A DNA stretch of 64,000 nt. Source: an uncultured Holophagaceae bacterium (GTDB lineage Bacteria > Acidobacteriota > Holophagae > Holophagales > Holophagaceae). The notes under the pieces are model-generated. The model saw nothing but the letters and a program-made list of their open reading frames with translations. It did no database searches and was not told where the DNA came from. Of this stretch, positions 8,251 to 38,870 are shown piece by piece (the stretch's first letter is position 1; each line of letters starts with the position of its first letter). The stretch covers positions 186,001 through 250,000 of the forward strand of contig CAIZZF010000015.1 in NCBI GenBank assembly GCA_903937385.1, given 5' to 3'. The position numbers were made by a program, and so were the translations under genes.

Positions 8251-9267
8251 ATGACCAGATGGAGTGGGGTAGAGCGGTTCAAGGTCATCGCGGAGATCGG
8301 TGGCAATTTCAAAACCTTCGAGCAGGCCCGCCTCCTGGTGGACGCCGCCGCAGCTTGTGGTGTCGACGCCATCAAGCTGCAGACCTTCCGGGCGCGGACC
8401 TTGGCCAGCACCGAGGCCGTGTTTCACTTCGAAAGCACCGGGGACATCCCCCAGTTGGATTTGTTCCGTGAATACGAGATTCCAGAGGCCATGCACCGAG
8501 AGATCTTCGCGCACATCGCGGCCAAGGGCCTGGAGTGGTTTTCCACCCCCAGCCATGAGGACGACCTGGCCCTGCTGGAGTCTCTGGGTGTGGCCAAGCA
8601 CAAGATCGGTTCGGATGACCTTACCAACCTGCCCTTGCTGGCAGCGGTGGCCCGCACGGGAAAGCCGATCCTACTCTCCACGGGAATGTCCACCCTGGCC
8701 GAGGTGGAGGAGGCGGTCCACATCATCCAAGCGAACACTGTCGCACCCCTGACCCTGCTCCACTGCGCCAGTAGCTACCCGACCCAACCCGAGCAGGTGA
8801 ATCTCCGAGCCATCAGGACCCTCCAGGAGCGCTTCCCGGGTGTGGTGGTCGGCTATTCGGACCATACTCTGGGCATCACGGCCTGTCTGGCAGCGGCGGC
8901 GCTTGGGGCGGAAGTCCTGGAGAAGCACTTCACCTGTGACAAGCAGGCCGTGGGGCCGGACCACTGCCATTCCTCGGACCCGGTGGAGATGGCAAGCCTT
9001 GTGGCCCAGTTGAGGGATCTCGAAAAGATGCTGGGGGATGGCTGCAAGCGACCTACGGGGCCGGAACTGCTCTCGCGGCGGAACACCCGAAAAAGTGTGG
9101 TGCTTGCGCAAACTGCCGCCGAGGGCACAGTGCTGGACTGCTCCATGCTCACGGTGAAACGGCCGGGGTGGGGCATTCCCCCAAAACACCAGAATGAGCT
9201 CATTGGGCGGCGCTTGCGCCGCGCCATGCAAGAAGACGCTGTCCTGACCTGGGAGGACCTGGCATGA
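8251..9267 (+). CDS. Nonulosonic acid synthase (NeuB/SpsE/LegI family)
   Basis: A 338-residue PEP-condensing sialic-acid-type synthase. It shows the TIM-barrel motifs VIAEIGGNF, IKLQTFRA, ILLSTGMS, LLHCASSYPT, GYSDHTLG and EKHFT, which include the metal- and PEP-binding residues of the family. The C-terminus (RPGWGIPP...LIGRRL) is the short antifreeze-like/SAF lobe. It would condense PEP with a six-carbon 2,4-diamino-type hexose to give a nine-carbon nonulosonic acid; legionaminic versus pseudaminic type cannot be told. It begins immediately after the upstream stop, and the order synthase, SpsF-like, SpsG-like matches the Bacillus spsE-spsF-spsG order. Confidence 0.9.
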   Translation: MTRWSGVERFKVIAEIGGNFKTFEQARLLVDAAAACGVDAIKLQTFRARTLASTEAVFHFESTGDIPQLDLFREYEIPEAMHREIFAHIAAKGLEWFSTPSHEDDLALLESLGVAKHKIGSDDLTNLPLLAAVARTGKPILLSTGMSTLAEVEEAVHIIQANTVAPLTLLHCASSYPTQPEQVNLRAIRTLQERFPGVVVGYSDHTLGITACLAAAALGAEVLEKHFTCDKQAVGPDHCHSSDPVEMASLVAQLRDLEKMLGDGCKRPTGPELLSRRNTRKSVVLAQTAAEGTVLDCSMLTVKRPGWGIPPKHQNELIGRRLRRAMQEDAVLTWEDLA

Positions 9268-9932
9268 CCGCGGAGCCTCAGATCGGGATCATCCTGCAGG
9301 CACGGATGGGATCGACCCGCCTGCCGGGCAAGGTGATGGCTGATCTGAATGGCCTGCCCTTGCTGAAGCACATCCTCCTGCGTTGGCAGTGGCTGGGTCG
9401 CTGGCCCCTGGTGCTGGCGACCACGGACCGTCCGGAGGACGATGCCCTGGAGTCCTTTTGCGGACAGGAGCAGGTCCCCTGCTTTCGGGGCAGCGCCCTG
9501 GATGTGCTGGACCGCTACCTGGGTTGCGCCCGGACTTTTGGCTTCGACCACGTGATCCGGTGGACTGGGGATAACCCCTTCGTGGATGTGGAGCATCTGC
9601 CCAGCCTGGTAGCTGGCCATCAGGGGGGTGCCTTCGACTACTCCAACAACTTTACCGGGCTGCCGCTGGGATGTGGGTCGGAGATCCTGTCGATGGGGGC
9701 GCTGTCCCGCAGTGCGGCCGAAGGCCTTGCTCCGGATCACCGCGAGCACGTGAACGAGTACATCCTCCAGAACCCGGCGCTGTTCTCCTGCTGGATCACC
9801 TCGGCACCCCATCCTGAGTCCTACGGCCTCCGCTGGACTGTGGATCTGCCGCAGGATCTGGAGGCAGCGCGGGTCCTGGCAGCGAAGGGGGGGGCTCCAC
9901 CGGCCCCGCTGGCGCGGTTGTTGGCGCCGTGA
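9264..9932 (+). CDS. SpsF-like cytidylyltransferase (CMP-nonulosonate synthetase family), copy 1
   Basis: A 222-residue nucleotidyltransferase with the family opening IILQARMGSTRLPGKVM, a DVLDRY motif and RWTGDNPFVD at the catalytic acidic site. Members activate nonulosonic acids with CTP, although SpsF itself is poorly characterised. It overlaps the synthase by four bases. A second family member lies at 15160, so the two may activate different sugars. Confidence 0.8.
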   Translation: MTAEPQIGIILQARMGSTRLPGKVMADLNGLPLLKHILLRWQWLGRWPLVLATTDRPEDDALESFCGQEQVPCFRGSALDVLDRYLGCARTFGFDHVIRWTGDNPFVDVEHLPSLVAGHQGGAFDYSNNFTGLPLGCGSEILSMGALSRSAAEGLAPDHREHVNEYILQNPALFSCWITSAPHPESYGLRWTVDLPQDLEAARVLAAKGGAPPAPLARLLAP

Positions 9933-10897
9933 TCGTCCTCTGCTTCGAGGCCTCTCATCGCCGTGGCCTGGGTCATGCCATGCGGATGCTGCGCTTGGCC
10001 TTGGAAATCCAGCGGCTGGGGGGCGCGCCGCTGCTGGTCTGCAATCCGGACGCCACCGTCGATCACTTGGTGGCGGAGTCCGGGCTGCCCTGCCGGCATG
10101 TACCCCTGGACCTGTTAGACACGGGCTGGGAGGCGGCCCTGCTGGATGCCGTGGGTCCCGTGCGCGTGTGGGTGGATGACCGCCTGGCCACCTCCCGCCG
10201 ACACGCCCAGGCCCTGAAGGCGCGGGGGCTCTGGCTGGCCACCGTGGATGATTCGGGAGAGGGTGCCGAGGAAAGCGACCTCCACCTCATCCCTCTGTTC
10301 TCCGGGGGGAGCCGGAAGGCAGGGCGGCGGATCCTGGAAGGCTGGGAGTGGGCCTTCCTGCCCGGCGACGAGATCCTCGCCGCCCGCGCCAAGCCGCGAC
10401 CAGTTCAGGCGGATCCACCTTCCATCGGGATCTGCCTTGGGGGCAGCGACAATCACGGCAGCATCCTGAATGTTCTGGATCGGCTCTTCGCCAAGCAGTT
10501 GGGGGCCAATGTATGCCTGGGTCCCGCCTTTCAGGGAGACAGCAGCATCCAGGCCCGTCTGGTGGATCCCAGGATCCGCGTGGTGCGGGAGGTGCCCTCC
10601 CTGGTCCACTGGCTCAGCGCTTATGATGTGGCCATCACCGGTGGCGGCATGAGTGCGTTGGAAGCTGCCGCCGTGGGGACGCCTCCCTGCATCGTGGCCA
10701 ACGAGCCGCACGAGGTTGAGACCGCCCGAAGGCTGGAGGAGGAGGGCCTGGGGATCTACTGGGGTACCCACGCAGGCCTCCCGGAGTGGCCGGTGGCGGC
10801 CTTCCAGGATCTGCCCCGCCGGTCCACGCTGGGGCGGGCATTGCGGGTGGATGGGGCCGCCAGGGTTGCCGGTATCTTGATGGAGGAGTCCAGATGA
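9929..10897 (+). CDS. PseG/SpsG-like nucleotide-sugar hydrolase or glycosyltransferase (GT-B fold)
   Basis: A 322-residue protein that begins with GTG inside the preceding gene. The N-terminal motif SHRRGLGHAMRMLRLA is the PseG-type G-rich loop (G.GH..R...L), and ITGGGMSALEAAAVGTP is the C-terminal nucleotide-binding motif shared by PseG and MurG. PseG removes UDP from the altrose-type precursor in pseudaminic acid synthesis. Here the upstream dehydratase looks LegB-like, so the exact substrate is uncertain. Position in the spsEFG-like trio supports a role before or at the synthase step. Confidence 0.75.
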   Translation: MIVLCFEASHRRGLGHAMRMLRLALEIQRLGGAPLLVCNPDATVDHLVAESGLPCRHVPLDLLDTGWEAALLDAVGPVRVWVDDRLATSRRHAQALKARGLWLATVDDSGEGAEESDLHLIPLFSGGSRKAGRRILEGWEWAFLPGDEILAARAKPRPVQADPPSIGICLGGSDNHGSILNVLDRLFAKQLGANVCLGPAFQGDSSIQARLVDPRIRVVREVPSLVHWLSAYDVAITGGGMSALEAAAVGTPPCIVANEPHEVETARRLEEEGLGIYWGTHAGLPEWPVAAFQDLPRRSTLGRALRVDGAARVAGILMEESR

Positions 10898-11523
10898 GAA
10901 TTCTCGCCATCGGCGCCCATGCGGATGATGTGGAACTGGGGTGCGGAGGCACCCTGGCCCGCTGGTCGGCTGAAGGCCATGAGATCCACCTTTGTGTCGT
11001 CACGGACTCCGCCTATGCGGACCCGGCCGGGACGCCCATTCGCAGCGAAGGGACCGCCCGTTCCGAGGCCGAAGCCGCCGCCCGGAAACTGGGTGCGAAG
11101 CTCCACTGGTTGGGGTTTCCCTGCCTGCAGGTGAGCTTCGACGAACCCCTGAACAAGGCCCTGCGAGGGCTGTTGGACGCGCTGCAGCCCGAGGTGGCGC
11201 TGAGCCACTGGACCGAAGACACGCACCACGATCACCGTGCGGTGGCCCTGGCGACCCTGCATTCGGCCCGGCACGTACCCCGGTTGCTCTGCTACCGGAG
11301 CAACTGGTACTTGGGAACCAATGCCTTCATGGCCTCGGTCTTCATGGACATCGGGCCCTGGTATGAGACCAAGCTGGAGCTCGTCCGACTTTACCAGGGC
11401 GAGCACACTCGAGCCGGGGACCGGTGGGAGCCCTTTCTCCAGGCCGAGGCTCGGCTGAGGGGACTCGAGGCCGGCTGCCAGCTTGCGGAGGGATTCCTGC
11501 CCATTCGTTGGGTGCTCGGATGA
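10894..11523 (+). CDS. PIG-L/LmbE family N-deacetylase
   Basis: A 209-residue zinc deacetylase with the signature AHADDVELGCGG (about 8-19) and a second metal motif in EDTHHDHRAV. The family removes N-acetyl groups from amino sugars such as GlcNAc-PI or mycothiol precursors. In a nonulosonic acid operon it could expose an amine on the sugar for later acylation or methylation (inference). It overlaps both neighbours by four bases (ATGA), so it is part of a coupled run. No signal peptide, so cytoplasmic. Confidence 0.8.
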   Translation: MRILAIGAHADDVELGCGGTLARWSAEGHEIHLCVVTDSAYADPAGTPIRSEGTARSEAEAAARKLGAKLHWLGFPCLQVSFDEPLNKALRGLLDALQPEVALSHWTEDTHHDHRAVALATLHSARHVPRLLCYRSNWYLGTNAFMASVFMDIGPWYETKLELVRLYQGEHTRAGDRWEPFLQAEARLRGLEAGCQLAEGFLPIRWVLG

Positions 11524-12389
11524 ACGCCCCCCGGGTGGGCATCACCGGACCCGGCGGCTACCTCGGAAGTCTGCTTTGCCGGCACCTCCAGGAGCGGGGC
11601 ATATCCTTCGCGCCATTGGGCCGTGCCGATGGCATTGAGGTGGACAAGCCCGCCGCTCTGGAAGCATTACCAGCCAGCGTCAGCACCCTGGTCCACATGG
11701 CTGCCCGCACAGGGGTGGCCGATTCCTGGGCCAACGCGGAAGAGGTGCTCCGGTTCAACGTCCTAGCAACCCTAGAGGCGGTGCGAGTGGCCCGCCAGCG
11801 GGGGCTGCGACTGATCATCCTGTCCTCCTATCCCTACGGGCGTGCCCCGCAGTTGCCCACGGATGAATCGCAGCCCACAGAGAGCATGAACCCCTATGGC
11901 AGCTCCAAGCTCCTGTCCGAGCAGCTAGTCCTGGATTCGGCGCGCCTCCACGGCTTCCCGGCCCTGTCGCTGCGGATCTTCAATGTCTACGGCCGGGAGC
12001 CCGAAGGACACCACACCCTCCCAGCCCAAATCTGGCAACAGCTGCGTACGGGTGGAGGCACGGTGCGGGTGAAGGATGCCGAACCCAGGCGGGATTACCT
12101 TTTTGTGGATGATCTGTGCGCGGCTCTGGTGCGGGCCATCGAGTCGGACTGGCCGAGCGCAGGAGTCTTCAATCTGGGGACGGGCTGCAACTACTCCGTC
12201 CGCGAATTGGTCGAGGCTTTTGGCGGGATGCTGGGACAGAAACTGGAACTGGTGGACGAGCGCCAGCTCAGGAAGGGGGAGATTCCGGCGACCCTTTGCG
12301 ACACCCGTCGCTTCGCGGCGGCCTTCACCTGGTCCCCGCAGGTCTCCCTGCAGGAGGGGCTGCGGTCCTACCTGGATCACCCATGCTGA
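11520..12389 (+). CDS. NAD-dependent sugar epimerase/dehydratase (SDR)
   Basis: A 289-residue extended SDR: N-terminal GITGPGGYLGS cofactor loop, ILSSYPYG, then NPYGSSK carrying the catalytic Tyr and Lys, and LRIFNVYGRE. The sequence fits nucleotide-sugar 4-epimerases/reductases but not a specific one. It overlaps the deacetylase by four bases and WbqC by seven. The likely role is a reduction or epimerisation of the same or a second nucleotide sugar. Confidence 0.8.
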   Translation: MNAPRVGITGPGGYLGSLLCRHLQERGISFAPLGRADGIEVDKPAALEALPASVSTLVHMAARTGVADSWANAEEVLRFNVLATLEAVRVARQRGLRLIILSSYPYGRAPQLPTDESQPTESMNPYGSSKLLSEQLVLDSARLHGFPALSLRIFNVYGREPEGHHTLPAQIWQQLRTGGGTVRVKDAEPRRDYLFVDDLCAALVRAIESDWPSAGVFNLGTGCNYSVRELVEAFGGMLGQKLELVDERQLRKGEIPATLCDTRRFAAAFTWSPQVSLQEGLRSYLDHPC

Positions 12390-13093
12390 GGACTGTCTGC
12401 ATCCATCAGCCGGATTTCGTCCCATGGCCCGGGTTCTTCCAGAGGCTTCTGGACTGCGACCTCTTCATCCTGCTGGATGATGCCCAGTACGAGAAGAATG
12501 GCTGGCAGAATCGGGACCGCATCAAGACGGCCCATGGCGCGAAGTGGATCTCCCTGCCGGTGGCCAAGGGGCCCCTCGGCCAGCTGATCCGCGAGGTAAC
12601 GTTGGCCCCGGTCCCCGGATGGCAGGACAAGCTGCTGAACCAGGTCCGAGAGAGCTACCGCAGGGCCCCGCATTTCGAGCCCTTCTTCTCAGAATTCGAG
12701 GAGCTGCTCCGCGCGCCCCACCTCCACATGGCGGATCTCAATGAGAGTCTCATCCGTTGGCTCATGGGCAAGTACGGTATCGATGTGCCCCTGCAAAGAT
12801 CCTCGGCTTTCGGCGTCCAGGAGCAGAAGAACGAGCGCCTTATCCAACTCCTGAAGGCTGCGGGCGCGACCCGCTACATCACTGGAGCGGGCTCCAGAAA
12901 CTATCTGGACGAAGGCCTCTTCGGCCACCATGGCATCGAGGTCCTCTGGCAGTCCTGGACCATGCCCTTGCACCCCCAGCAGCATGGTCCCTGGATTGGA
13001 ATGCTCTCTTCTCTGGATGCCCTGTTCAACATTGGGCCCCATCTGAAGAGCTGGGTGCGGGACCATGGGGCGGCCCTTGAGGAACGTCCATGA
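12383..13093 (+). CDS. WbqC family protein
   Basis: A 236-residue WbqC-like protein. The opening CIHQPDFVPWPGFFQRL and LLDDAQYEKNGWQNRDRIK are the family's most conserved stretches, and YITGAGSRNYLDE lies in the second half. WbqC proteins occur in O-antigen and nonulosonic acid clusters and are proposed to act as acyl- or aminoacyl-type transferases, but the reaction is not established. It overlaps both neighbours. Confidence 0.8.
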   Translation: MLRTVCIHQPDFVPWPGFFQRLLDCDLFILLDDAQYEKNGWQNRDRIKTAHGAKWISLPVAKGPLGQLIREVTLAPVPGWQDKLLNQVRESYRRAPHFEPFFSEFEELLRAPHLHMADLNESLIRWLMGKYGIDVPLQRSSAFGVQEQKNERLIQLLKAAGATRYITGAGSRNYLDEGLFGHHGIEVLWQSWTMPLHPQQHGPWIGMLSSLDALFNIGPHLKSWVRDHGAALEERP

Positions 13094-14196
13094 CCTCCTA
13101 TATTCCCATCAACAAAGGCAACTACAGCCTCGACACTCCTGAGCGTGAGGCGGCTTTCGAACGGCTGAGGGCCGGGGACCGGCCCGCTGACTATGCGGAG
13201 TACCGCCGCCTCTGGACCGATCTGCCCAGGGCCACGGAGCTGCGGGACTACCCTGTCCACGTGGATCTGGAGCTGGCTTCGGTCTGCAACCTCAAGTGCC
13301 CCATGTGCTATACGATCACGGCGGAGTTCAAGCGCAAGGTCAACGCCACCCTGATGAATTTCGACCTCTTCCGGCGCCTCGTGGATGAGATCCAGGGCAA
13401 GGTCTGGTCGGTGCGCCTCAGCCTCCGGGGCGAGTCCTTGCTGCATCCGAGAATCCTCGACGCGATCCGCTACGCGAAGGAGGCAGGCATCCTCGAGGTC
13501 TCGACCCTCACCAATGGCTCGAACCTTAAGTCACGGGATTTCTGCCGGGACCTGGTCCAGACGGGACTCGACTGGATCACGGTGTCCGCCGACGGAATCG
13601 AGGACACCTACAACCGCATTCGGGCCCCCATCACCTACCGAGAGATCCTCCAGAACCTCCGCAACCTGTTGGAGGTGAAGGCAGAGTTGCAAAGCGCCAA
13701 GCCGGTCGTCAAGGTCCAGGGCATCTGGCCTGCCCTACAGCAGGATCCTGGTGCCTATCTCGCTGCCTACTCGCCTCTGTCCGACCTGGTGGCCTTCAAT
13801 CCGCTGATCGACTACATCCGGGAACTCCCGGATTCGGAACTGCTCTTTGAGCCGAACTTCACCTGCCCCATGCCCTACCAGCGTCTGGTCATCGGGGCTG
13901 ATGGCACAGCGATGATGTGCTCCAACGACGAGGAGAACAACCACCCAGTCGGGAACGCCAACACCCAGACCATCCATGAGATCTGGCATGGTCTCGCCAT
14001 GAGGCAGGTCCGGGAACTCCACCAGGCACATGGTGGGGTGGCGGCCCTGGGTCCATGCAGCCGCTGCTATCTCCCGCGCCGCACCCGCGACGAGCCGCAT
14101 CTCGTGGACGGCCGCGAGGTAGTGGTGAAGAACTACGTCACCGTGCATGACTTGAAAACCACCATCGAGCAGATGACAAATCAGATTGATAAATAA
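13090..14196 (+). CDS. Radical SAM protein with SPASM-type C-terminus
   Basis: A 368-residue radical SAM enzyme. The [4Fe-4S] cluster motif CNLKCPMC gives Cys66, Cys70 and Cys73. The C-terminal part has CPMPYQRLVIGADGTAMMCSND and a later CSRCY, typical of SPASM/Twitch auxiliary cluster binding. Such enzymes in glycan operons modify sugars or peptides by radical chemistry (dehydrogenation, epimerisation). It starts four bases inside wbqC. The gene itself is GC-rich but is followed by an AT-rich junction. The substrate is unknown. Confidence 0.85.
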   Translation: MTSYIPINKGNYSLDTPEREAAFERLRAGDRPADYAEYRRLWTDLPRATELRDYPVHVDLELASVCNLKCPMCYTITAEFKRKVNATLMNFDLFRRLVDEIQGKVWSVRLSLRGESLLHPRILDAIRYAKEAGILEVSTLTNGSNLKSRDFCRDLVQTGLDWITVSADGIEDTYNRIRAPITYREILQNLRNLLEVKAELQSAKPVVKVQGIWPALQQDPGAYLAAYSPLSDLVAFNPLIDYIRELPDSELLFEPNFTCPMPYQRLVIGADGTAMMCSNDEENNHPVGNANTQTIHEIWHGLAMRQVRELHQAHGGVAALGPCSRCYLPRRTRDEPHLVDGREVVVKNYVTVHDLKTTIEQMTNQIDK

Positions 14197-14239
14197 GATA
14201 GCGATAAATACGTATTTCTAGGTGAGAGGTACATGAATC

Positions 14240-15136
14240 ATGTTCATCAGCAAAACATATTACCGTCAATACAATAATGATCATGAAATCGAAAATCACA
14301 AGGAATTCTATAAACACTTTAGCAATACACGGGAATTTGGGGGAGCCTTCACCCACTTCGACCATCTCGTCAAAAATCGTTTCATGAACATCTTCCAGCA
14401 CACCTACAATGCCGTTCTTCGGAAACAACCCAACAGGATCATTGATATCGGCTGTGGAGCGGGAGTCAACCTCCCCCTTGGAAGGCTCTTTCCGCAGGTG
14501 GAATTCCATGGAATCGACTACGCCGAGAAGGCCATCCAGGCCTCCAGCGCCATTTATCCTGAGATCAAATTCCACATCATGGATGCCTTCAATCTAAATT
14601 TTGAGGGGGGCCACTTCGACTTGGCCATCCTCTCCTCTGTTGTTATTTTATATAAATCCGAACAGGACCGGATCAAGCTTCTGACTGAAGCTGCGCGGGT
14701 CTTAAACGAAAAAGGCGTACTGATCTGCATTTTATGGAATGACGCTTCCTTCCTGCGCTGGAGCATCCGCCTTTCGCGTCTCTTCGCGAAACTGCGTGGG
14801 GTGGCGACACCGGAGGACTTCCTAGCGATCCACCTGAGCGAGCGTGAGGCCCGCCGGATGTTTGCCCTCAGCCCTTTCGAACTGGAGGAGGTGCAGCACA
14901 CCGGGAGTTTGTACGGGCTGCTGGAAATGGTTCGGTATCTCAATTTGGGGAAGTACCGCCGCACCTTCGGTGCAGCGGAACGGGAAGGCCTTGCTGAGCT
15001 GCCCCAGAACATCAAGGCAGATCTGGTCCAGGCCTCAGGCGGCTCGCAGCTCACCCGATTCCTGTTCAGGCTGCATCGGTGGTTCCCCCGGCAGTTTGCG
15101 ATGTACAGCTTCTACGTCCTGAGGAAAAAGGCCTGA
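14240..15136 (+). CDS. SAM-dependent methyltransferase
   Basis: A 298-residue class I methyltransferase: RIIDIGCGAGVNLP is the SAM-binding motif I (about residues 66-79), followed by FHGIDYAEKAI (motif II) and FDLAILSSVV. The first half of the gene is markedly AT-rich with many Lys, Asn and Tyr codons, unlike the GC-rich second half, which suggests a chimeric or recently acquired N-terminal part. It sits after a 43-base gap, one of the few gaps in this operon. The probable role is O- or N-methylation of the glycan. Confidence 0.8.
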   Translation: MFISKTYYRQYNNDHEIENHKEFYKHFSNTREFGGAFTHFDHLVKNRFMNIFQHTYNAVLRKQPNRIIDIGCGAGVNLPLGRLFPQVEFHGIDYAEKAIQASSAIYPEIKFHIMDAFNLNFEGGHFDLAILSSVVILYKSEQDRIKLLTEAARVLNEKGVLICILWNDASFLRWSIRLSRLFAKLRGVATPEDFLAIHLSEREARRMFALSPFELEEVQHTGSLYGLLEMVRYLNLGKYRRTFGAAEREGLAELPQNIKADLVQASGGSQLTRFLFRLHRWFPRQFAMYSFYVLRKKA

Positions 15137-15159
15137 ACCAGAATTCCGGGAGTGAGGAC

Positions 15160-15951
15160 ATGACGCGCATCATCGCAACAGTGGAAGCCCGCATGGGCTC
15201 GACCCGGCTACCCGGGAAGACACTCATGGCCTTGCCCACAGGTGAAACCCTGCTGGACTTGGTGGTGGCCCGGTTGCGCCAGGTGCCGAGTGTCGCGGAA
15301 GTCTGGGTCGCCACCTCCCTTTCGGCCAAGGATGATCGGGTGGCAGCGCATTGCCGCAGGGCTGGCATCGCCTGCCATAGGGGGGACGAGGAGGATGTCC
15401 TCGACCGGGTCTGCGCCACATTGAAGGCCGCCGCCGGGGACCTTGTCGTGCAGGCCGGGGGCGACGGACCCTATGTGCAGCCCTTCCTCATCGAGGAGCT
15501 GCTTCAACGGCTCCAGGCAGGGTCTTGGGATTACGTCTGCAATGATATGCGGCTGACTTATCCGCTGGGGGTCTACGGACATGTGCTGCCGGCAGGTCTG
15601 CTGCACGATCTAAACGCGCGCCGGGACCTTTCCGCCGCCGATCGGGTGGATGTGGTCCGCGCCATCTTTGAGCATCCGGAGACCTATCGGATCCTCAGCC
15701 TCACTGCGCCGGAAGCCTATCGCCATCCAGACCTGCGTCTGACCATTGATCATTCCGAGGACATGGCCCTTCTGAACCGCATCCTGACCAAACTGGGGCA
15801 TCCTGGCCTTGAGCTGGAGGCCCTCCTGGCGGCCGCCAGCGCCCATCCTGATTGGTTCGCCCCCGTACGGGCCCTGGTGCAGGTTTCCTCGGCCCACCTC
15901 TTCGGGGCGGCGGGTTTTGAAGAGGCTCCAGGCGGCCTCCGCCATGGCTGA
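15160..15951 (+). CDS. SpsF-like cytidylyltransferase family protein, copy 2
   Basis: A 263-residue paralogue of the gene at 9264, with the same opening pattern (ATVEARMGSTRLPGKTLM), DVLDRV and VVQAGGDGPYVQP. It differs in its C-terminal third and carries GGDGP where copy 1 has TGDNP at the acidic site. It may activate a second acid sugar or have lost CMP transfer. ATG 15160 follows the ribosome site GTGAGGA. Confidence 0.75.
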   Translation: MTRIIATVEARMGSTRLPGKTLMALPTGETLLDLVVARLRQVPSVAEVWVATSLSAKDDRVAAHCRRAGIACHRGDEEDVLDRVCATLKAAAGDLVVQAGGDGPYVQPFLIEELLQRLQAGSWDYVCNDMRLTYPLGVYGHVLPAGLLHDLNARRDLSAADRVDVVRAIFEHPETYRILSLTAPEAYRHPDLRLTIDHSEDMALLNRILTKLGHPGLELEALLAAASAHPDWFAPVRALVQVSSAHLFGAAGFEEAPGGLRHG

Positions 15952-16969
15952 GCTTCGGGTCGGCATCCTCGGCACAGGGCAGATTGCCGGCGGTTATGAC
16001 CTCGATCGGGCGCCCGGGGAGCGGGGCGTCTTCACCCATGCCGGAGCCTATCGGGCGCAGGGCGGCTTCCGCCTGGCCTGGGCTGCCGATCCCGATGCTG
16101 CGAGCCTGGCGCGCTTCGCGGCGGCCTGGCACCCCGAGCAGACAACCCAGGATGTGGACCGTCTGCTGCTGGAACCCCTGGACGTCCTAAGCATCTGCTC
16201 CCCCAACGCCTGCCACGTGGAGCAGGTGCTGCGCGCCCTGGAGGCGGGACAGGTGCGGGCCCTCTGGGTGGAGAAGCCCTTCGCGCCCACTCTGGGGGAG
16301 GCCGAGACCATTCGCCAGCTGGCCTTCCTGCACCAGGTCCAGCTCCTGATCAACTTCCAGCGGCGCTTCGATCCCGTGCTGCTGGCCCTACGGGAGCGGC
16401 TCCGGGGCGAGGACATCCGTCTGGTGCGCGGGCTTTACCATAAGGGCTGGTCGCACATGGGCACCACCCTGGTGGATCTGGCCCACCTCCTGTTCGGCCC
16501 TCCGGAGCGGGTGGAGGCCCGCAGTCATGGTGCCACCGGGTCGGGGGACTTGATCCTGGACGTCCAGATGCACTGGGCGGGTTTCACCGGGCACTTGCTG
16601 GCCCTGGATTCACCTGGGGCACCCAGCCCCTGTCATGTGTTTGACCTCGAGATCTTCACGGCCCGGGAGCGTATCCTCATCACCGACAACTCCCGGCGGA
16701 TACTCGTGCATCCCATTGGGGACTACGCCTATGGCGGTGTCAAGGTCTATCTGCCCGAGGCCGAGGCTCAGCAGACCGATTTCGACCAGTCCATGGTGCA
16801 TTCGGCCGGATTCATGGAGGGGTTCCTTCGAGGGGATCAGGCCTGGTCGGAACGTCCCTTGCTAGACAACCTGGAGGTATGTGCCACGGTTCAGGCAGGG
16901 CTGGAGGCCGCGCGGCAGAACGTGCCCATTTTCCTGCCCCCGGTTCCCCCCGACCTGGAGATGTCATGA
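15944..16969 (+). CDS. Gfo/Idh/MocA family NAD(P)-dependent oxidoreductase
   Basis: A 341-residue protein starting with the Rossmann motif VGILGTGQIAGGYD. The EKPFAP motif holds the catalytic-site lysine of the Gfo/Idh/MocA family (the EKP signature), and a beta-sheet C-terminal domain follows. These enzymes oxidise or reduce sugar hydroxyls, commonly at C3, ahead of transamination, which suits the aminotransferase gene directly downstream. The start overlaps the previous gene by eight bases. Confidence 0.85.
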   Translation: MAELRVGILGTGQIAGGYDLDRAPGERGVFTHAGAYRAQGGFRLAWAADPDAASLARFAAAWHPEQTTQDVDRLLLEPLDVLSICSPNACHVEQVLRALEAGQVRALWVEKPFAPTLGEAETIRQLAFLHQVQLLINFQRRFDPVLLALRERLRGEDIRLVRGLYHKGWSHMGTTLVDLAHLLFGPPERVEARSHGATGSGDLILDVQMHWAGFTGHLLALDSPGAPSPCHVFDLEIFTARERILITDNSRRILVHPIGDYAYGGVKVYLPEAEAQQTDFDQSMVHSAGFMEGFLRGDQAWSERPLLDNLEVCATVQAGLEAARQNVPIFLPPVPPDLEMS

Positions 16970-18201
16970 AGAGCCCCATGCAATTCCCGCCCTATCAGCC
17001 CCACGGACCCGAGGAGTTGCAGGCCGTCGTGGAGGTCATGAAAACCGGCCAGCTGTCCCCCTTTCTGGGCAAGCACGATCCAGCCTTCCATGGGGGACCC
17101 AGGGTCCAGGAACTGGAAGACCGCTGGGCTGAGGCCCATGGTGTGAACCATGCGGTCGCCTTCAATTCCGCCACCTCGGCCCTCATCGCCGGCCTGGCGG
17201 CCCTCCGGGTGAGCCCGGGGGATGAGGTGCTCGTCGTTGGCTACAGCATGTGCATCTCGGCCAGCGCCCCCCTCCTCTTCGACGCCATCCCGGTCTTCGT
17301 GGACATCGAGCCGGACTGCTTCTGCATGGACCCCGCAAAGATCGAGGCAGCCATCACCCCCCGGACCAAGGCCATCCTGCCCGTGGATCTCTTCGGCCAG
17401 TCTGCGGACATGCCCGCCATTCGGGCCATCGCCGCCAAGCATGGGTTGCGGGTCCTCAACGATGCCTCCCATGTGCCGGCCTGCCGGGCCTTCGGCGGCT
17501 ACGCCGGGACCCTTGGCGATATCGGCGTTTACAGCCTCAACCAGCACAAGATCATCCACTGCGGGGAAGGCGGCCTGGCGGTCACCAACGATGAGGACCT
17601 GGCCCTCCGCCTCAAGCTGCTCCGCAACCACGCCGAGGCGGTGGTCGGGGAGATGGGGCGCACGGATCTGGAAGGGATGGTGGGCGGGAATTATCGCCTG
17701 GGTGAGTTGGAGGCCGCCATCGCCATCGAGCAGCTGAAAAAGCTGCCGGGCCTGCTGGCCGCCCGGCAGGAGCTGGCCGGGAGGCTGGCCGAGCGCCTGA
17801 ACGCCCTCGGCTTCTTGGAGGCCCCCCGGGTCCGGGCCACCTGCGAGCACTCCTACTACCTGTTTCCGGTGCTGTTCGATGCGGCCAAGGCCCGCATGGA
17901 TCGGCAGACCTTCGTGTCCAACCTCAAGCACCAGGGCTATGAGCTCTACCGCCTGGCTGTGGGCTATGTGGAGCCGCTGCACCTCCTGCCCCTCTTCCAG
18001 AAGCCCCGGGAATTCCGGGCCGGCTATCCCTGGAATCTCTTGGCGGGCGAAGCCAAGCAGTCCTACGCGCCCGGCCTGCTGCCGGTCACCGAGCGGCTGC
18101 ACAACACCGAGATGCTGGTGCTGTCCCACATCTACCCGCCCCTGAGCCTGGGTGACATGGACCGCATCGCGGACGCCTTCGCAGCAGCTGCGGAGGCCTG
18201 A
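16966..18201 (+). CDS. DegT/DnrJ/EryC1 (ArnB) family sugar aminotransferase
   Basis: A 411-residue PLP enzyme. FNSATSALIAGL binds the PLP phosphate, NDASHVPACRAF carries the ring-contacting Asp, and SLNQHKIIHCGEGG contains the Schiff-base Lys195. It would aminate a 3- or 4-keto nucleotide sugar made by the SDR or Gfo/Idh partners, giving an amino sugar. It could be the LegC-equivalent step for the nonulosonic acid, or it could act with the upstream oxidoreductase on a different sugar. It overlaps the upstream gene by four bases. Confidence 0.85.
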   Translation: MKSPMQFPPYQPHGPEELQAVVEVMKTGQLSPFLGKHDPAFHGGPRVQELEDRWAEAHGVNHAVAFNSATSALIAGLAALRVSPGDEVLVVGYSMCISASAPLLFDAIPVFVDIEPDCFCMDPAKIEAAITPRTKAILPVDLFGQSADMPAIRAIAAKHGLRVLNDASHVPACRAFGGYAGTLGDIGVYSLNQHKIIHCGEGGLAVTNDEDLALRLKLLRNHAEAVVGEMGRTDLEGMVGGNYRLGELEAAIAIEQLKKLPGLLAARQELAGRLAERLNALGFLEAPRVRATCEHSYYLFPVLFDAAKARMDRQTFVSNLKHQGYELYRLAVGYVEPLHLLPLFQKPREFRAGYPWNLLAGEAKQSYAPGLLPVTERLHNTEMLVLSHIYPPLSLGDMDRIADAFAAAAEA

Positions 18202-18205
18202 ACCC

Positions 18206-19192
18206 ATGAGCGTCAATCATGACGAGGAATACCTCGTCGCCCTCAGGACCTGGATCAATGCCAGCTTCGAGCGAGCCGCCGAACTGGCCCGGGGACCGTT
18301 GGAACCCAGGCCCTGTCCGGTCTGTGGATCCCCCCAGGTAGGCCACCTGTTCAACAATGGAAACCTGGACTACAGCCGTTGCGAGGCTTGCGATCACGTC
18401 TTCATGAATCCCTGGTTTGGCCACCGGCCCGTGGACTATTCGGGCCACGACAAGCTCATGAACCAGTTCTTCGAAATCATGCAGCGCTATCGCACGCGCC
18501 CCTTCGAGGAACGGCAGGCGAACGCGGGGCGGGATCGGCGGATCTCCTTTTTGAGGCGCCATGTCCCCGATGGCGCCAGGCTTCTGGACGTGGGCTGCTC
18601 CACAGGCGATTTCCTGGACCTCGCGGCGCTCTTTTACGAGGTATCGGGCCTGGAGCCCAACGAGAAGACCTGGGCAATCGCCTCCCGCCGCCACGCAGTC
18701 CATCACGGCTACGTCGAGGATCTGCCCCGGGACCAGGTCTTCGATGTGGTGACCCTCAACCAGATCCTCTATGGGATCAAGGATCCGGCCGCCTTCATCC
18801 AGGCCCTCGTGCCCCGGATGCGCTCCGGAGGCAGGCTCTACATCAACACACCGAACGCAGACTCCTGGGCCGTGCGCCTCTTCGGTGGCCGGGCGAACCA
18901 CTTCGAAGGCTTCGCGGCCATGAACGTGTTTACCCCCGGCTCCCTACAACGGTTGATGCGAAATGCGGGTCTGAGGCTGGTCACATTGGAGACTGAGTGG
19001 CTGGATGTTTACTTGCCCGACCTCTTCGAGTGGCTGGACAATCCTTCTGCCTTTATCCACAAAAGAAACGTCCAGCGTCCCGACTACATCCAGGACATGA
19101 AGGATCAGGATGGGTTCCTGGCCAAGTGGAACGAACCCGAATTCCTTCATGAGCGCGGCAACTACCTGGTCGCCCTCTTCGAGAAGCCATGA
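18206..19192 (+). CDS. Class I SAM methyltransferase with N-terminal zinc-ribbon-like motif
   Basis: A 328-residue methyltransferase. Residues about 36-62 carry two Cys pairs (CPVCGSP and CEACDH), the putative zinc-binding head common in sugar C-/O-methyltransferases. The SAM site is RLLDVGCSTGDFLDL and the later FDVVTLNQILYGI is motif IV. It starts four bases after the aminotransferase. It probably methylates the nucleotide sugar or the finished glycan. Confidence 0.8.
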   Translation: MSVNHDEEYLVALRTWINASFERAAELARGPLEPRPCPVCGSPQVGHLFNNGNLDYSRCEACDHVFMNPWFGHRPVDYSGHDKLMNQFFEIMQRYRTRPFEERQANAGRDRRISFLRRHVPDGARLLDVGCSTGDFLDLAALFYEVSGLEPNEKTWAIASRRHAVHHGYVEDLPRDQVFDVVTLNQILYGIKDPAAFIQALVPRMRSGGRLYINTPNADSWAVRLFGGRANHFEGFAAMNVFTPGSLQRLMRNAGLRLVTLETEWLDVYLPDLFEWLDNPSAFIHKRNVQRPDYIQDMKDQDGFLAKWNEPEFLHERGNYLVALFEKP

Positions 19193-20244
19193 AGATCGTG
19201 GCTCTAACCGCCGATCCCGGTGGCGCCGCCGTCCTATCCCCCCTCATCCGGGGCCTGGAGTCCCGTGGGTATCTGGTCGAGACCTGGGCCAAGGGTAGCG
19301 GCTCGGAGCGCTTGCGACACGAGGGGATAGAGGCCCTGGCCATGCCGACCTGGGAAGGCGTTCCCGAGGCCTGGATGGAGGAGAGGGGGGCCTCCCTGCT
19401 GCTGACCTCCGCCACCTCTCTGCCCAGGGTGGATCTGTCCGAGCGCTGGGCCTGGTTGGCTGCTGCGGCCCTCGGCGTTCCCTCCATCGCCTTAGTGGAT
19501 TCCTGGCAGAACTACAGCCTCCGCTTCGCGGGTCCAGAACCCGGCCACCCCTTCATGGCTTTCCCTGACCTAATTGGATGTCCGGATGCCCTAGCCCAAG
19601 AGGAAATGGAGGCGGCCGGGCTGCCCGCGCCCCGCCTGCGGGCCTGGGGCCACCCGGGCCTAGATCGCTTCATCGAGTCTTTCCAGCCCTTGGATCGGCC
19701 CGAGTTCTGGAAGCAGGAACCCGGGCGCCGGGACATCCTGCAGGTGCTGTTCGTATCGGAGGCCATCGCAGAGCACTTCGGGCGGGACCGGGGCTACGAC
19801 CAGCACGACTGCTTCCGCGAATTGGCTGCCTGGCTCCAGGCTTGCGAGGAACCTCTGAACCTCCTGATCAAGCTCCACCCGAAAGAATCGAGAATCGGCC
19901 ACGAGGCCTGGTTCGCAGACCTCCATCCCCGGCATCGGGTGCTGACATTGGAGGGCCTGAGTCCTTTAGAGGCGGTGGGACTGGCGGATGTGGTGGTCGG
20001 CATGACCTCTGTCCTGCTGGTGGAGGCCCATGCGGTCGGCAAGCCGGTCATCAGCCTCCAACCTGGATTGCAGGGGGAGGATCCCTTCGTGCTGAGCAGG
20101 CGCGGCCTGGTCCAGCGCCTGGACCGGATGCCTCCACCGGATCAGTTGCGGCCCGCCAGGAAGGCCGGTCTGGACCGGAAGCCCTTTGCCTGGGATGCCT
20201 TTGTCCACGAGATTGAAACCCTCTGCAGGCCGATCGAAAGGTAA
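19189..20244 (+). CDS. Putative GT-B type glycosyltransferase, function uncertain
   Basis: A 351-residue protein with a two-Rossmann GT-B-like layout: an N-terminal ALTADPGGAAVLSPLIRGLESRG loop, LLIKLHPKES in the middle and VVGMTSVLLVEAHAVGKPVISLQP, a GT-B donor-binding motif like that of UDP-GlcNAc epimerase and capsule transferases. I cannot place it in a named family. Translationally coupled to the methyltransferase (four-base overlap). Confidence 0.6.
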   Translation: MKIVALTADPGGAAVLSPLIRGLESRGYLVETWAKGSGSERLRHEGIEALAMPTWEGVPEAWMEERGASLLLTSATSLPRVDLSERWAWLAAAALGVPSIALVDSWQNYSLRFAGPEPGHPFMAFPDLIGCPDALAQEEMEAAGLPAPRLRAWGHPGLDRFIESFQPLDRPEFWKQEPGRRDILQVLFVSEAIAEHFGRDRGYDQHDCFRELAAWLQACEEPLNLLIKLHPKESRIGHEAWFADLHPRHRVLTLEGLSPLEAVGLADVVVGMTSVLLVEAHAVGKPVISLQPGLQGEDPFVLSRRGLVQRLDRMPPPDQLRPARKAGLDRKPFAWDAFVHEIETLCRPIER

Positions 20245-20248
20245 ACCG

Positions 20249-22633
20249 ATGGTCCACTCCAATCGATATGAAGCAGCCATGGCCAGGTCCGCTGCGGCGT
20301 TCGTAGAGCTGCGCGGTTCGGCCAAGGGCCGGCCCGTGTTCGTCCTTGGCACCGGACCCTCGGCCAAGGATTTCAACCTCACACCACTGAAGCATGAACT
20401 CACCATTTCGGTGAACGGATTTGGCCGGATCCCCAGCATTGAAGAGATTTCGCCCAGCTTCCACCTGGTGGCTGACCCTTCCGCCTGGAATCCTGTCCAG
20501 TTCCCGACAGCCTTTGCGGACACACTCTCGGGGCTCTCCTTCCTGGATCACTGTCCCACCCAGCTGATCCTGCCGATGAATTACGCGGAAATGACCCTGG
20601 ATCACCCCGCCTATCAAAATTGGGCGCCGCTTTATTTCCAGTACACCGATGATCCGACCTGGCCCATCGACTTCTCCCGTCCCGTGCCCACCTGGGGTCA
20701 GAACATTCTCAATATCGGCCTGATGTTCTGCCTACATCTGGAGGCGAAGGAGGTCTTCCTGGTGGGCTTTGACAATGGCGGAGTGATTGATCGCTTGAGC
20801 GACCACGTGAACTTCTACCCTGCTGCGGAGCGATTCGAAGAAGCGGTGAAGGTCTACGACGATGCCGAGATGAGGCGCTGCATGGGCGTCCACTTGAATC
20901 AGCTCCATGCGCTGAAGCGGATCGCCACGGAAAACGGGATGGGAATCTATACCTGCTCGAAGCGGGGCAGTTTTCGGATGTTCCCCTACCTGGATTTCAA
21001 TAGCCTGGACCTGGCCAAGTTGCCGGAGGCAGCGGCCGCAGCTGAGGAATCCACTTTGGCTCTGCCAGAGCGTCCCGCACCAACGGGAGGTATTCTGTCC
21101 AGGATTTTTCATTACGCCCAGGACGATCCGGGCGTTCCCGCTCTCCACCTGCTGGAGCCCCCGGGTTGGAGGACAGTGACTCGAGGGGCATTGGCGGATT
21201 CGATCAGCCGTTATGCCGCGAACTTCAGCACGGTCGGGCGACCCGGCAGCCTGATTCTCTTCCTGAAACGGACGGACGAGGACTTGTTGGCGGCCTACCT
21301 GGGCGCCATTGCAGCGGGCCGCGTCCCCGCTCAGCTAAGTCCCCCCACCGCCAAGGTGCGCCCCGAAGAACACACTCGATGGATGAACCATCTTCTCAAT
21401 GTGACAAAGGCAGAGATCCTGTTCACGGACCCAGACTTCCCTCACGAATGTCTCCTGGAGCGTCAACTGACCTGGCTTTCGCCGGAGGGTCCCTGGGTCC
21501 AACCTGGCCAGGAGCCCTTCAGCTTTGCGGACCGACCTGACAACTTGGCCCTCGCCCAGATGTCCAGTGGGACCACGGGCCTGCAAAAGGCCGTGTTCCT
21601 CACCCATCAGGGAATCCTCGATCACATGGACAGCTATGGGAAGGCCATCGGTCTAAGGGCTGGGGATGTCGTAATCAGTTGGCTCCCGCTATATCACGAC
21701 ATGGGCCTTATGGCGGCCTACCTGATGCCCCTGATGGCGGGTGTGCCCCTGGTTCTCATGGACCCATTCCGTTGGATCTCGAATCCGAAGTTGCTGGTGG
21801 AAGCCGCCGAGCGATTCTCGGCCACCATCACCTTCCTTCCCAATTTCGCCTACCAGGTCCTCGCGGATAAATGTCCTGGGCGAGGACTCGGAGGCCTACG
21901 CCTCTTCGTGAACTGTTCCGAACCGGCGCGGCCTGAGACTCACGAGCGCTTTCTGGAGGCCTTCCCGGACGTGGATCGGGGGGCCCTGTCCGTGTGCTAT
22001 GCCATGGCGGAGAACACTTTCGGCGTCTCCCAAACGGAACCGGGGGTTCCTCCCCGCAGCGTGGTCATCGGCACCAAGAAAGTCCTCTCCTGTGGTCGCA
22101 TCCTTCCGGGAACGGACCTACGGATCAACGCGGAGGATGCAGACGGGGTCGGAGAGGTGGCCATCCGCGGGGCCTTCCTCTTCAGCCGCTTCCTGGATGG
22201 CGCGGAGCATCTCGTGGATGGATTCTATCCCACGGGCGACCTTGGGAAACTGGAGGGTGGAGAACTCTTCATCACTGGGCGGAAGAAGGATCTGATCATC
22301 GTGAACGGGAAGAACATCTACCCCCAGGATGTGGAACACGCGGCCTCCTCTTGTGAGGGGGTTTACCCTGGGCGCACCGTCTGCTTCGGCGTGGAAAATG
22401 AGGCTGCAGGCAGCGAGGATCTGGTAGTGCTCGTAGAACCCCGGGTGCCTGAACCCGGCGATGACCTGCTGGTTCGGATCTCCAATGCCGTGGAGCGGGA
22501 ATCCGGGATCCGCCCCCGGCATATCGGCGTGGTGCCCCACATGAGTTTGACGAAGACAAGCAGCGGGAAGGTCAGCCGGATGCGGAACAAGGAGCTCTTT
22601 CTGGAAGGCCGCTTGGGGAGTGCTCGATGCTGA
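20249..22633 (+). CDS. Fusion: Maf/MptE-like domain + FAAL-type acyl-AMP ligase
   Basis: A 794-residue two-part protein. Residues about 1-260 resemble the DUF115/MptE-like core of flagellin Maf glycosyltransferases: VFVLGTGPSAKDF (31-42), FHLVADPSAW and EVFLVGFDNGG. Residues about 280-794 are an adenylation enzyme: SSGTTG phosphate loop (439-444), SWLPLYHDMGL typical of fatty-acyl-AMP ligases, TGD (662-664), GRKKD hinge (677-681), and Lys774 in KTSSGKVSR, the catalytic lysine of the C-terminal lobe. It should activate a carboxylic acid as acyl-AMP. The next gene supplies a carrier protein and overlaps it by seven bases. I know of no described protein with this pairing. Confidence 0.8.
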   Translation: MVHSNRYEAAMARSAAAFVELRGSAKGRPVFVLGTGPSAKDFNLTPLKHELTISVNGFGRIPSIEEISPSFHLVADPSAWNPVQFPTAFADTLSGLSFLDHCPTQLILPMNYAEMTLDHPAYQNWAPLYFQYTDDPTWPIDFSRPVPTWGQNILNIGLMFCLHLEAKEVFLVGFDNGGVIDRLSDHVNFYPAAERFEEAVKVYDDAEMRRCMGVHLNQLHALKRIATENGMGIYTCSKRGSFRMFPYLDFNSLDLAKLPEAAAAAEESTLALPERPAPTGGILSRIFHYAQDDPGVPALHLLEPPGWRTVTRGALADSISRYAANFSTVGRPGSLILFLKRTDEDLLAAYLGAIAAGRVPAQLSPPTAKVRPEEHTRWMNHLLNVTKAEILFTDPDFPHECLLERQLTWLSPEGPWVQPGQEPFSFADRPDNLALAQMSSGTTGLQKAVFLTHQGILDHMDSYGKAIGLRAGDVVISWLPLYHDMGLMAAYLMPLMAGVPLVLMDPFRWISNPKLLVEAAERFSATITFLPNFAYQVLADKCPGRGLGGLRLFVNCSEPARPETHERFLEAFPDVDRGALSVCYAMAENTFGVSQTEPGVPPRSVVIGTKKVLSCGRILPGTDLRINAEDADGVGEVAIRGAFLFSRFLDGAEHLVDGFYPTGDLGKLEGGELFITGRKKDLIIVNGKNIYPQDVEHAASSCEGVYPGRTVCFGVENEAAGSEDLVVLVEPRVPEPGDDLLVRISNAVERESGIRPRHIGVVPHMSLTKTSSGKVSRMRNKELFLEGRLGSARC

Positions 22634-25548
22634 TCCTGGGGAACAGCCACGTCTCTGTCTTCGAAGACGGCATCCTCTGCCCCGAGGAAACAGTGGAGGT
22701 GCGCTGGATGGGGGCCCTGCTGGCCCGACACTTCCTGGATGGCCATCCGGCGGGGAGGGCCGCAGTGAAGGTAATCCACGCTGAGCCAGGCTGGACTTTC
22801 CTCTTCCTCGGGAACCACGATGTCCAGGCGCTCTGGCGTTCCGTCGGCGTAGGAGAATTTGACCTGGCATTGGAGCGGCTGCTGGCCGATTACGAGTCCA
22901 TGTTCAACCTCCTCTCCAGTAGCGGTTCCCTGGCCTGGGTAGCCAGCGTCCAGCAGGTCCGGAACGTGGCCCAGAGTCCCGCCGAGGAAACCGCGCTGCT
23001 GAGGCTGGAGGTCGCATTCCGCGAGGGGCTCACGGCACTCTGTACACGGATCGGCGTCGCGGTTTTGGATCCCCTCAAGCCCTATCGAGCTGCGGATGGC
23101 CGCATCGACGCGGCGATTCTCCAGACTGACGGCCTGCACATCCTCCATGAGCGAAGTGGACTCTTCCTGGAGGCATTTTCGACGCTATCAGGCCTTCATC
23201 TCAATCGGAATTCAGAGCCCCGGGGCCGCCGTTTCCGCCCGGATAATGAAGTGGGCTCCTTGGCTGGACTTGTGACAGGGCGCCTCGGCCTGCCGGCCCA
23301 AGCGATTCCGCCTAGGCAGCACCTCGCTAATCAGATTGCCCTCCAGGCCCGGGACCTGCTCGCCCGACGAGGTCTGGTGGTCGAAATCCTCTGCGACACC
23401 GACCTCGTCAGCTCTAGTCTCCTGGATTCCCTGGGGTTGGTGGAGCTCTATGCCTGGCTGCACGGTTATCTAGGTCAGACCCTGGATTTCGATGTGGACC
23501 TGCGCGCTTTTCCCACAGCCAACGACCTGGCGGAGCGATTTTCGAAAGTCGTACACTGGCAGCCCGGCCTGGAGGACTTCGTCATATCCCTGGAGGAGCC
23601 TGAAGACTCCCTAGCGGTGCTGGAAGCGGAGGACCGGATCGCAGAGGGAGGTGAAGCCCTGTTTGTGCGCCTAGCCCAGGTGGAGAAGGAGACCTTGCCC
23701 GAAGGCCATGGCTACGGAATCATCGACTACTGGAAGTCTCTAGCTTCCGGTGTCTCGGCCCGAGCCGTCTACCTTGCGGCTAGCGCGGGAATCCGCAGCT
23801 TTCCCATATCTTCAAAGCGGCTCCAGCAGCGAATGATTCGGTTGGTTTCTGGAGCGGGGGTGCCAAGCGGAGATCGCCATGGGGACCTGAGCATGGTGCA
23901 GGACTGGCTGCGGGTTTGGACGGCCATGGCCCATTCGGACTTTGCCGACCTGCTTCCAGCCCTCCTCCGGCCTTGGCGAGAGACTTTGCCCGATCACCTG
24001 GACCTGCTGGTCCTGGAAGCCAGGGCCATGAAGGTCGGGAAGGATTTTGCAGGGGCTCACAGCCTCCTCGATACGGTGGAGTCCGCCTGGCCCTGGATGG
24101 CCGATGCCAAGCTGTTGCGCGGCGAGTTGTTCCTGGAGGAGGGCCAGGCCACACAGGCACAGGAGTGTTTCAAGGCAGCACTTGCGCTGGACACCCAGGC
24201 AGTTGGCACCGAGTCCGCTATCTCTGGCTGGAATCGCTTCTGTGCCTCCAACCGGAAGCCTGCCGTTGTGGCGGCTGTCCCTGCCCCTGGCAACGCGCTG
24301 GATCCAGATACGGAGGCATCACCCGCCCAGGAGCTTCTGGAACAGGCGGACGAGGCCATCGGGCGGCAGGACTTCGGGGCGGCCCAGGAACTTCTCATTG
24401 CTGCACTGGACCTCAATCCGAACCTGCCCCTGGTCTATCGCGCCCTGTCGGGACTGCTGGACTCACAGGGGGATTCGGAAATGGCCCGCAAGATCCTGGA
24501 GGCAGGACTGGACCAGAACCCAGAGGACGAATCACTCTGGGACAGCCTGATCGATCTGGCCGAGGGATTGTGGCCCGCCCAGGCAGGGCTGGACGCCAAG
24601 GACGCCCTTTCGAGAGTTCCCACCGGCGGCGGAGGTCGCTGGCATCAACTGGCCGCTCAGACCCTGCTGGAACAGGGCCACCAAGATGCGGCGCTGCGGA
24701 TCCTGGAAGAGGGGCTTCGCCATTATCCTAGGCACGCAGCTTTGCGAGCCGTCAGAGAAGCGCACTACCCCACGCTGTTCAAGACTCCAAGCCCCCCGAT
24801 CCCTGACCAGGCGCCGCGCATGACCGTCATCTGCGCTGTCTGGCACAAGGATCCGGATCGCTTCTCCCTGCTGCGGGATCACCAGGCCTGCCTGGATGCC
24901 CAGACGGTGTCGGTAGACCGCATCTACGTTTTCGATGGCGGGGATCAGCCGCCCGAGTGGATGCACGGCAAGGTGGTAACGACCCGCGAGAAACTGACCA
25001 TCTACGAGGCATGGAACCTGGCCCTGCCCCTGGTGCGGACACCGTACCTCATGACCCTCAACCTCGATGACCGCCTAAACCTTGATTGCGTGGCCCTCTA
25101 TGAAGAGGCCCTGGACGCAGGGGCGGACCTCACCACAGGCGACTGGCGCATCACCTTCTCCCAGGAGGAGACCAACCGACTAGAACTGAGCTTCCCTGCG
25201 AAGGAGCTGCCCTTGGTCCGGGACCGCATATGGCCGCCGCCGCCTCATGAACCCGCCCGCCTTGGGAGCGCCGGGGAGAACTGGTCCCTGGGTCCGGCCT
25301 ATGCATGGAAGATGAAACTCCATCTGGAATTCCCGCGGTTTCCCTGGATGTTTGGTGATGGGACCCTGATCCGCACGATTGGTGACGCTGTATGGGGCAA
25401 GCTTCTCGAAGGGGCGGGGAAGAATATCGTACGGCTTCCATGGGTGATAGGGCACTACCACAGCCACCCAGGAGAACAGGCGGAATTCCGAAACCCCGCG
25501 ATGAAAGAAACAGAGACAGTCAATCGTGTGGGGATCGCTTACGTATAG
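22627..25548 (+). CDS. Fusion: SGNH hydrolase/acyltransferase fold + acyl carrier protein + TPR + family 2 glycosyltransferase
   Basis: A 973-residue protein with four recognisable parts. Residues 1-195 form an SGNH-like domain: GNSH with Ser7, GNHD with Asn63, and TDGLH with Asp168/His171 as catalytic candidates. Residues about 230-310 look like an acyl carrier protein, with DSLGLVEL and Ser268 as the likely phosphopantetheine site. Residues about 420-710 are helical TPR-type repeats. Residues 731-973 are a GT-A glycosyltransferase (MTVICAVWHKDPDR, metal motif LDDR at 813-816). The simplest model is that acyl groups activated by the upstream ligase are loaded on this carrier and moved to a sugar by the SGNH domain while the GT2 domain adds that sugar. 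That is inference. Confidence 0.75.
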   Translation: MLILGNSHVSVFEDGILCPEETVEVRWMGALLARHFLDGHPAGRAAVKVIHAEPGWTFLFLGNHDVQALWRSVGVGEFDLALERLLADYESMFNLLSSSGSLAWVASVQQVRNVAQSPAEETALLRLEVAFREGLTALCTRIGVAVLDPLKPYRAADGRIDAAILQTDGLHILHERSGLFLEAFSTLSGLHLNRNSEPRGRRFRPDNEVGSLAGLVTGRLGLPAQAIPPRQHLANQIALQARDLLARRGLVVEILCDTDLVSSSLLDSLGLVELYAWLHGYLGQTLDFDVDLRAFPTANDLAERFSKVVHWQPGLEDFVISLEEPEDSLAVLEAEDRIAEGGEALFVRLAQVEKETLPEGHGYGIIDYWKSLASGVSARAVYLAASAGIRSFPISSKRLQQRMIRLVSGAGVPSGDRHGDLSMVQDWLRVWTAMAHSDFADLLPALLRPWRETLPDHLDLLVLEARAMKVGKDFAGAHSLLDTVESAWPWMADAKLLRGELFLEEGQATQAQECFKAALALDTQAVGTESAISGWNRFCASNRKPAVVAAVPAPGNALDPDTEASPAQELLEQADEAIGRQDFGAAQELLIAALDLNPNLPLVYRALSGLLDSQGDSEMARKILEAGLDQNPEDESLWDSLIDLAEGLWPAQAGLDAKDALSRVPTGGGGRWHQLAAQTLLEQGHQDAALRILEEGLRHYPRHAALRAVREAHYPTLFKTPSPPIPDQAPRMTVICAVWHKDPDRFSLLRDHQACLDAQTVSVDRIYVFDGGDQPPEWMHGKVVTTREKLTIYEAWNLALPLVRTPYLMTLNLDDRLNLDCVALYEEALDAGADLTTGDWRITFSQEETNRLELSFPAKELPLVRDRIWPPPPHEPARLGSAGENWSLGPAYAWKMKLHLEFPRFPWMFGDGTLIRTIGDAVWGKLLEGAGKNIVRLPWVIGHYHSHPGEQAEFRNPAMKETETVNRVGIAYV

Positions 25549-38832: not shown

Positions 38833-38852
38833 GATAGTCTTTTTCTCAACCT

Positions 38853-38870
38853 GGTAGCACGGATGCTACC
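38853..38870 (+). promoter_or_regulatory. Leader hairpin of flagellin 2 with a GGA loop (putative CsrA site)
   Basis: A 7-bp stem GGTAGCA/TGCTACC with loop CGGA, in the same position as in the first leader (23 bases between stem end and ATG). The third base pair changed from C-G to T-A on both sides, a compensatory change that keeps the structure. CACGGA also recurs at the SD (38881-38886). Confidence 0.6.

Follow-up and report, generated by a model that had tools for sequence, protein, structure and literature searches.

A pair of overlapping genes in the 64,000-nucleotide stretch of DNA analysed here (the window) probably decorates a surface sugar with an acid group via a previously undescribed route, and on balance we favour, with some reserve, a cytoplasmic carrier-protein acyl-transfer line acting on flagellar sugars. 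Gene 1 (20249..22633, plus strand, 794 aa) joins a Maf/MptE-like domain to an acyl-AMP ligase of the FAAL clade, and gene 2 (22627..25548, plus strand, 973 aa) encodes an SGNH-ACP-TPR-GT2-like protein. The two reading frames, both present as the initial annotation had read them, overlap by 7 bases and form the end of a long same-strand operon. Every key residue named in that annotation was found, and Lys774, Ser268, Ser7, Asp168 and His171 are also conserved among relatives.

Domains of the two proteins

The ligase is the most clearly assigned part of gene 1. Its adenylation domain (residues 288–790; 21110..22618, plus strand) carries SSGTTG at residue 439 and the catalytic Lys774, both kept across the aligned relatives, and a search for an adenylation fold at residues 280–794 gave a match to the Pfam AMP-binding profile with an E-value of 1e-41. 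The top matches in a PDB sequence search were FAALs such as 7r7g and 3kxw, which reached 142 bits whereas no CoA ligase exceeded 77, placing the enzyme nearer to FAALs as the annotation had proposed. It differs from them in that the FAAL-specific insertion, a criterion for FAAL membership (PMC8460268), is absent, the protein being about 20–30 residues shorter than other FAALs past the YAMAEN motif. The motifs of the ligase and the carrier encoded by the partner gene are points of resemblance. Both Sericytochromatia relatives described below likewise have no insertion, and most other aligned relatives retain it. For the Maf/MptE-like (DUF115, PF01973) domain (residues 18–254; 20300..21010, plus strand) the direct Pfam match stays below the cut-off (E 0.008; 16.4 versus 34.6 bits), and the earlier assignment finds support through a relative: the domain is 27% identical to a Sericytochromatia Maf protein on contig L075 (BLAST E 7e-24), and that protein clears the PF01973 cut-off with 35.8 bits. 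When the whole genome of the bacterium itself was searched with the Maf profile nothing passed the threshold, and the weak domain of the window was missed as well.

Gene 2 opens directly on the SGNH motif MLILGNSHV. Its SGNH (GDSL-like) region (residues 1–191; 22627..23199, plus strand) gave no direct Pfam match, and the predicted fold comes from an AlphaFold model of residues 1–328 with a mean pLDDT of 80.6 and about 90 over residues 1–190. The modelled residues 1–190 match many GDSL/SGNH structures with Z-scores of 13–15, among them sialate O-acetylesterases, the peptidoglycan O-acetyltransferase PatB and the acyl-thioesterase TesA, and Ser7, Asp168 and His171, corresponding to the catalytic serine and the Asp-x-x-His motif, are invariant in an alignment of 23 sequences. 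Model and alignment thus both support the SGNH fold that had been proposed for this part of the protein. The Gly-x-Asn-Asp of block III is not kept, as Gly62 is retained within GNHD (G62-N63-H64-D65) here and the Magnetococcia sequences read GEPE.

The acyl carrier domain (residues 230–308; 23314..23550, plus strand) has its phosphopantetheine site at Ser268 in a DSL motif. Its PP-binding match (E 0.005) scores 17.5 bits and hence lies below the Pfam cut-off of 20.8, and the carrier fold, which had been placed at residues 230–310, is supported by the model, with predicted helices at 230–247, 268–282 and 298–308 that are positioned as in ACPs, Ser268 starting the second of them. Asp267-Ser268 is retained in every relative possessing a carrier domain, and the genome contains two matches to the phosphopantetheinyl transferase family. 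Between carrier and TPRs (23580–24010) lie about 130 residues without a Pfam match; a similar sequence follows the carrier on L075 and begins in genome G192. The TPR region (residues ~464–711; 24016..24759, plus strand) is clear in Pfam, in agreement with the earlier reading. The C-terminal GT2-like domain (residues ~720–973; 24784..25545, plus strand) is a weak assignment. The NLDDR motif is indeed present and tblastn links the region to a bona fide GT2 domain (3.6e-4), and for the family assignment of the annotation the other results were a Pfam E-value of 0.074, an hhalign probability of 34%, a pLDDT of 32 for a structure model built on a two-row alignment, and no sequence match in the PDB.

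The flagellar gene neighbourhood

The genes upstream of gene 1 (6167..20244, plus strand) encode a LegB-like protein, a CBS-nucleotidyltransferase (PtmE-like), NeuB, two cytidylyltransferases, a PseG-like protein and a PIG-L deacetylase, together with an epimerase, WbqC, a radical SAM protein, two methyltransferases, MocA and DegT, and this operon is a legionaminic/pseudaminic-type route. Downstream follow two tandem flagellin genes (38233..39493, plus strand) and the genes of FliD and two FliS proteins (39992..42825, plus strand), so that the nonulosonic acid genes and the flagellar setting noted initially are both borne out. The flagellins, at 199 aa each, are so short that hardly any outer domain, or none, remains for glycans, and adjoining their genes two TPR proteins with OGT-like (GT41) domains are encoded on the minus strand (34166–37916). 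Control of the operon by sigma-54, as suggested earlier, is only suggestive: a single candidate site with one mismatch lies at 6087–6102, 65 bases ahead of the legB-like gene, but once up to two mismatches are allowed, such sites occur no more often than expected by chance. Pfam scans of the operon identified neither a GNAT acetyltransferase nor an acyltransferase of another kind.

Relatives in other bacteria

Scanning the genome collection for both halves of gene 1 led to two Sericytochromatia contigs, L075 and L062, where Maf and FAAL are separate genes followed by an SGNH-ACP gene in the same order as in the window. On L075 the SGNH-ACP gene runs on into GT2 and TPRs and fliD is located 4 kb beyond, whereas L062 is a partial copy with the contig ending inside the SGNH-ACP gene and neuB upstream. 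The genome-neighbourhood search proposed in the initial annotation thus recovered the Maf/FAAL/SGNH-ACP order in a second phylum, with fliD or neuB close by. Upstream of the SGNH-ACP gene on L062 a GNAT acetyltransferase is fused to a carrier domain (7511–8404) and adjoins a second AMP-ligase and the Maf-FAAL-SGNH set. The same phylum search also returned G192, with three tandem SGNH-ACP-type genes on a single short contig (L219, 1–3656), the last of them ended by the contig edge. Among 297 genomes of the window's own phylum the only full-length match is the window's own copy, and in close relatives gene 2 found TPR matches only, which indicates that the genus did not inherit the module from its common ancestor. 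Pairs of ACP and FAAL occur in two relatives, G049 and G061, that belong to the bacterium's own family or class, with no SGNH match there.

In Magnetococcia, SGNH-ACP was found in 22 of 48 genomes, in all 22 behind a FAAL in one open frame with the SGNH domain starting directly at the ligase end; of the 398 Pseudomonadota genomes drawn, these 22 alone matched. A different bacterium (L069) also encodes FAAL-SGNH-ACP as a single polypeptide, bringing the fused form to 23 genomes, and all 23 copies retain the serine motif of the SGNH domain and the DS motif of the carrier. The L069 fusion appears to carry a methyltransferase-like tail and is adjoined by an FkbM methyltransferase gene, and in G419 (L212) an FkbM methyltransferase is fused on. 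The Magnetococcia copies (L157–L177, L143) stand beside genes for cytochrome bc1, a carbamoyltransferase and housekeeping functions, in varied settings, most of them not flagellar, and the flagellar link therefore rests on three genomes. Ligase, SGNH domain and carrier recur as neighbours or as one protein across genomes far beyond chance. Trees computed separately for ligase and SGNH-ACP both join the window with Sericytochromatia (SH-aLRT 100), although long branches leave internal details of the SGNH-ACP tree unsure, and their agreement shows that the unit travels together. Judged from the sequences, this agreement and the missing FAAL insertion would fit a transfer of the entire unit from one phylum to another.

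Proposed route, alternatives and known systems

From the named protein families we propose that the gene 1 ligase adenylates a carboxylic acid and that the activated acid would then be loaded onto the phosphopantetheine on Ser268 of the gene 2 carrier. The SGNH domain, with its serine and its constant covalent link to the carrier, would take the acyl group onto Ser7 and pass it to a hydroxyl, or less likely an amine, on a sugar that the upstream operon produces, either the nonulosonic acid or a different one. The bond would probably be an ester, formed before attachment to flagellin, and the gene context suggests that the Maf-like domain, perhaps with the GT2-like domain and the TPRs, may help to put the decorated sugar on flagellin. 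The analysis itself shows the motifs, the modelled SGNH and carrier folds, the recurring fusion and the position among flagellar and nonulosonate genes; the acid, the acceptor, the loading, the direction of transfer (as opposed to hydrolysis) and the final place on flagellin are what we infer. Activation, carriage and transfer had been read from the domains before; the FAAL-SGNH-ACP fusion in 23 other genomes and the order shared with a second phylum support this reading well, with the transfer itself as its conjectural step. The methyltransferases fused to or beside some copies count in its favour as well, as do the GNAT-carrier fusion on L062, the two phosphopantetheinyl transferase-family matches, the agreeing trees, the SGNH fold matches with PatB and TesA among them, and the nonulosonate and flagellar genes on either side of the pair. 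SGNH transferases are known mainly as O-acyltransferases, and an amide on the amine freed by PIG-L is hence possible but not favoured. Against an acyl-transfer line speak the loss of the block III Asn position, the non-flagellar Magnetococcia copies, the presence of the pair in just one of the 297 genomes of its phylum, and the nature of the SGNH family itself, whose members are more often hydrolases and whose nearest structures here include the sialate O-acetylesterases.

That last point bears on two other explanations. The SGNH domain could be a thioesterase or editing enzyme which clears the carrier or frees the acid, with the loaded carrier being used by another enzyme; TesA among the structure matches and the predominance of hydrolases in the family would agree with this, but the operon scans gave no other acyltransferase, leaving the loaded carrier without a user, and an editing domain fused into every FAAL-ACP copy would be unusual, so that we regard this explanation as unlikely, though it is the best of those competing with acyl transfer. 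Somewhat less probable still is a role as an O-acetylesterase in trimming the nonulosonic acid, with ligase and carrier acting separately, for example by forming an amide with the sugar amine that PIG-L frees. The closest solved structures and a PIG-L gene in an operon where no GNAT acetyltransferase gene was identified are compatible with such a role, but it is difficult to reconcile with an SGNH domain that in 23 genomes, mostly outside nonulosonate loci, is covalently joined to the ligase on one side and the carrier on the other. Production of a small acylated metabolite or lipid, with an incidental location in the flagellar operon, is the least probable explanation. In its favour are the varied Magnetococcia gene settings and the fact that FAALs are familiar chiefly as enzymes of natural-product pathways (PMC11837247). 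Against it, a Maf domain accompanies the ligase, fused or in a neighbouring gene, in the window and in the two Sericytochromatia genomes, flagellar genes are on the same stretch in two of these three, and the window genes covered by the Pfam scans gave no match to a PKS or NRPS domain.

Returning to the acyl-transfer line, its parts resemble those of teichoic acid D-alanylation, in which an adenylating enzyme, a carrier and the SGNH-like DltD together bring an acyl group onto a glycopolymer. The Dlt system depends on an MBOAT protein, DltB, and works on the outer side of the membrane, whereas in gene 2 the catalytic motif stands at the very start and leaves no space for a signal peptide. As Pfam scans of the operon genes gave no match to MBOAT, membership in the Dlt system was rejected. 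A Dlt-like set consisting of a 391-aa protein, an MBOAT protein, an ACP and an AMP-ligase does exist in the same class (L220, 10068–14616) and is closer to Dlt than the gene pair is. It is conceivable, if a little short of an even chance, that FAAL-SGNH-ACP represents a distinct, mobile class of acyl-transfer line that puts an activated acid on sugars through a serine acyl-enzyme, much like a compact Dlt system working in the cytoplasm, and to which Maf and glycosyltransferase domains have been added for use on flagella.

We know of no SGNH line in the system behind di-O-methylglyceric acid in Campylobacter. According to the available part of one report (PMC3068675), this acid is found there on pseudaminic acid of flagellin, dependent on the locus gene Cj1295, which resembles our proposal in placing an acid on a flagellin nonulosonic acid; in contrast to the ligase-SGNH-carrier line proposed here, the attaching enzymes are not named in that part. 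Genes for an AMP-dependent synthetase/fatty acid CoA ligase and an ACP are present in flagellin glycosylation islands of Aeromonas group II (PMC7874193), where they lie beside pse and maf genes, and of Enterobacteriaceae (PMC4875605), and the authors of both studies propose a lipid-bearing sugar. These islands share with our locus the AMP-ligase and ACP genes in a flagellin glycosylation context, but the genes are separate and accompanied by LuxC/LuxE/FabG, and neither paper describes a fused ligase-SGNH-carrier line or mentions SGNH. In view of these islands and of the acid-decorated pseudaminic acid, the statement of the initial annotation that no such system had been described was too strong. 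The part without a precedent known to us is the SGNH-linked line: unusual bacterial FAAL fusions have been catalogued (PMC8460268, PMC11837247), the term SGNH is absent from both texts, and the open-access literature, where absence is not proof, yielded no description of an SGNH-linked FAAL/carrier line.

Fatty-acid-type genes have been noted in flagellin islands for years without a route from the activated acid to the sugar. With ligase, carrier and a domain of transferase fold in one or two proteins, the line represents a testable candidate for this route, and its presence in almost half of the Magnetococcia genomes sampled suggests a wider, undescribed acylation of bacterial surface sugars.
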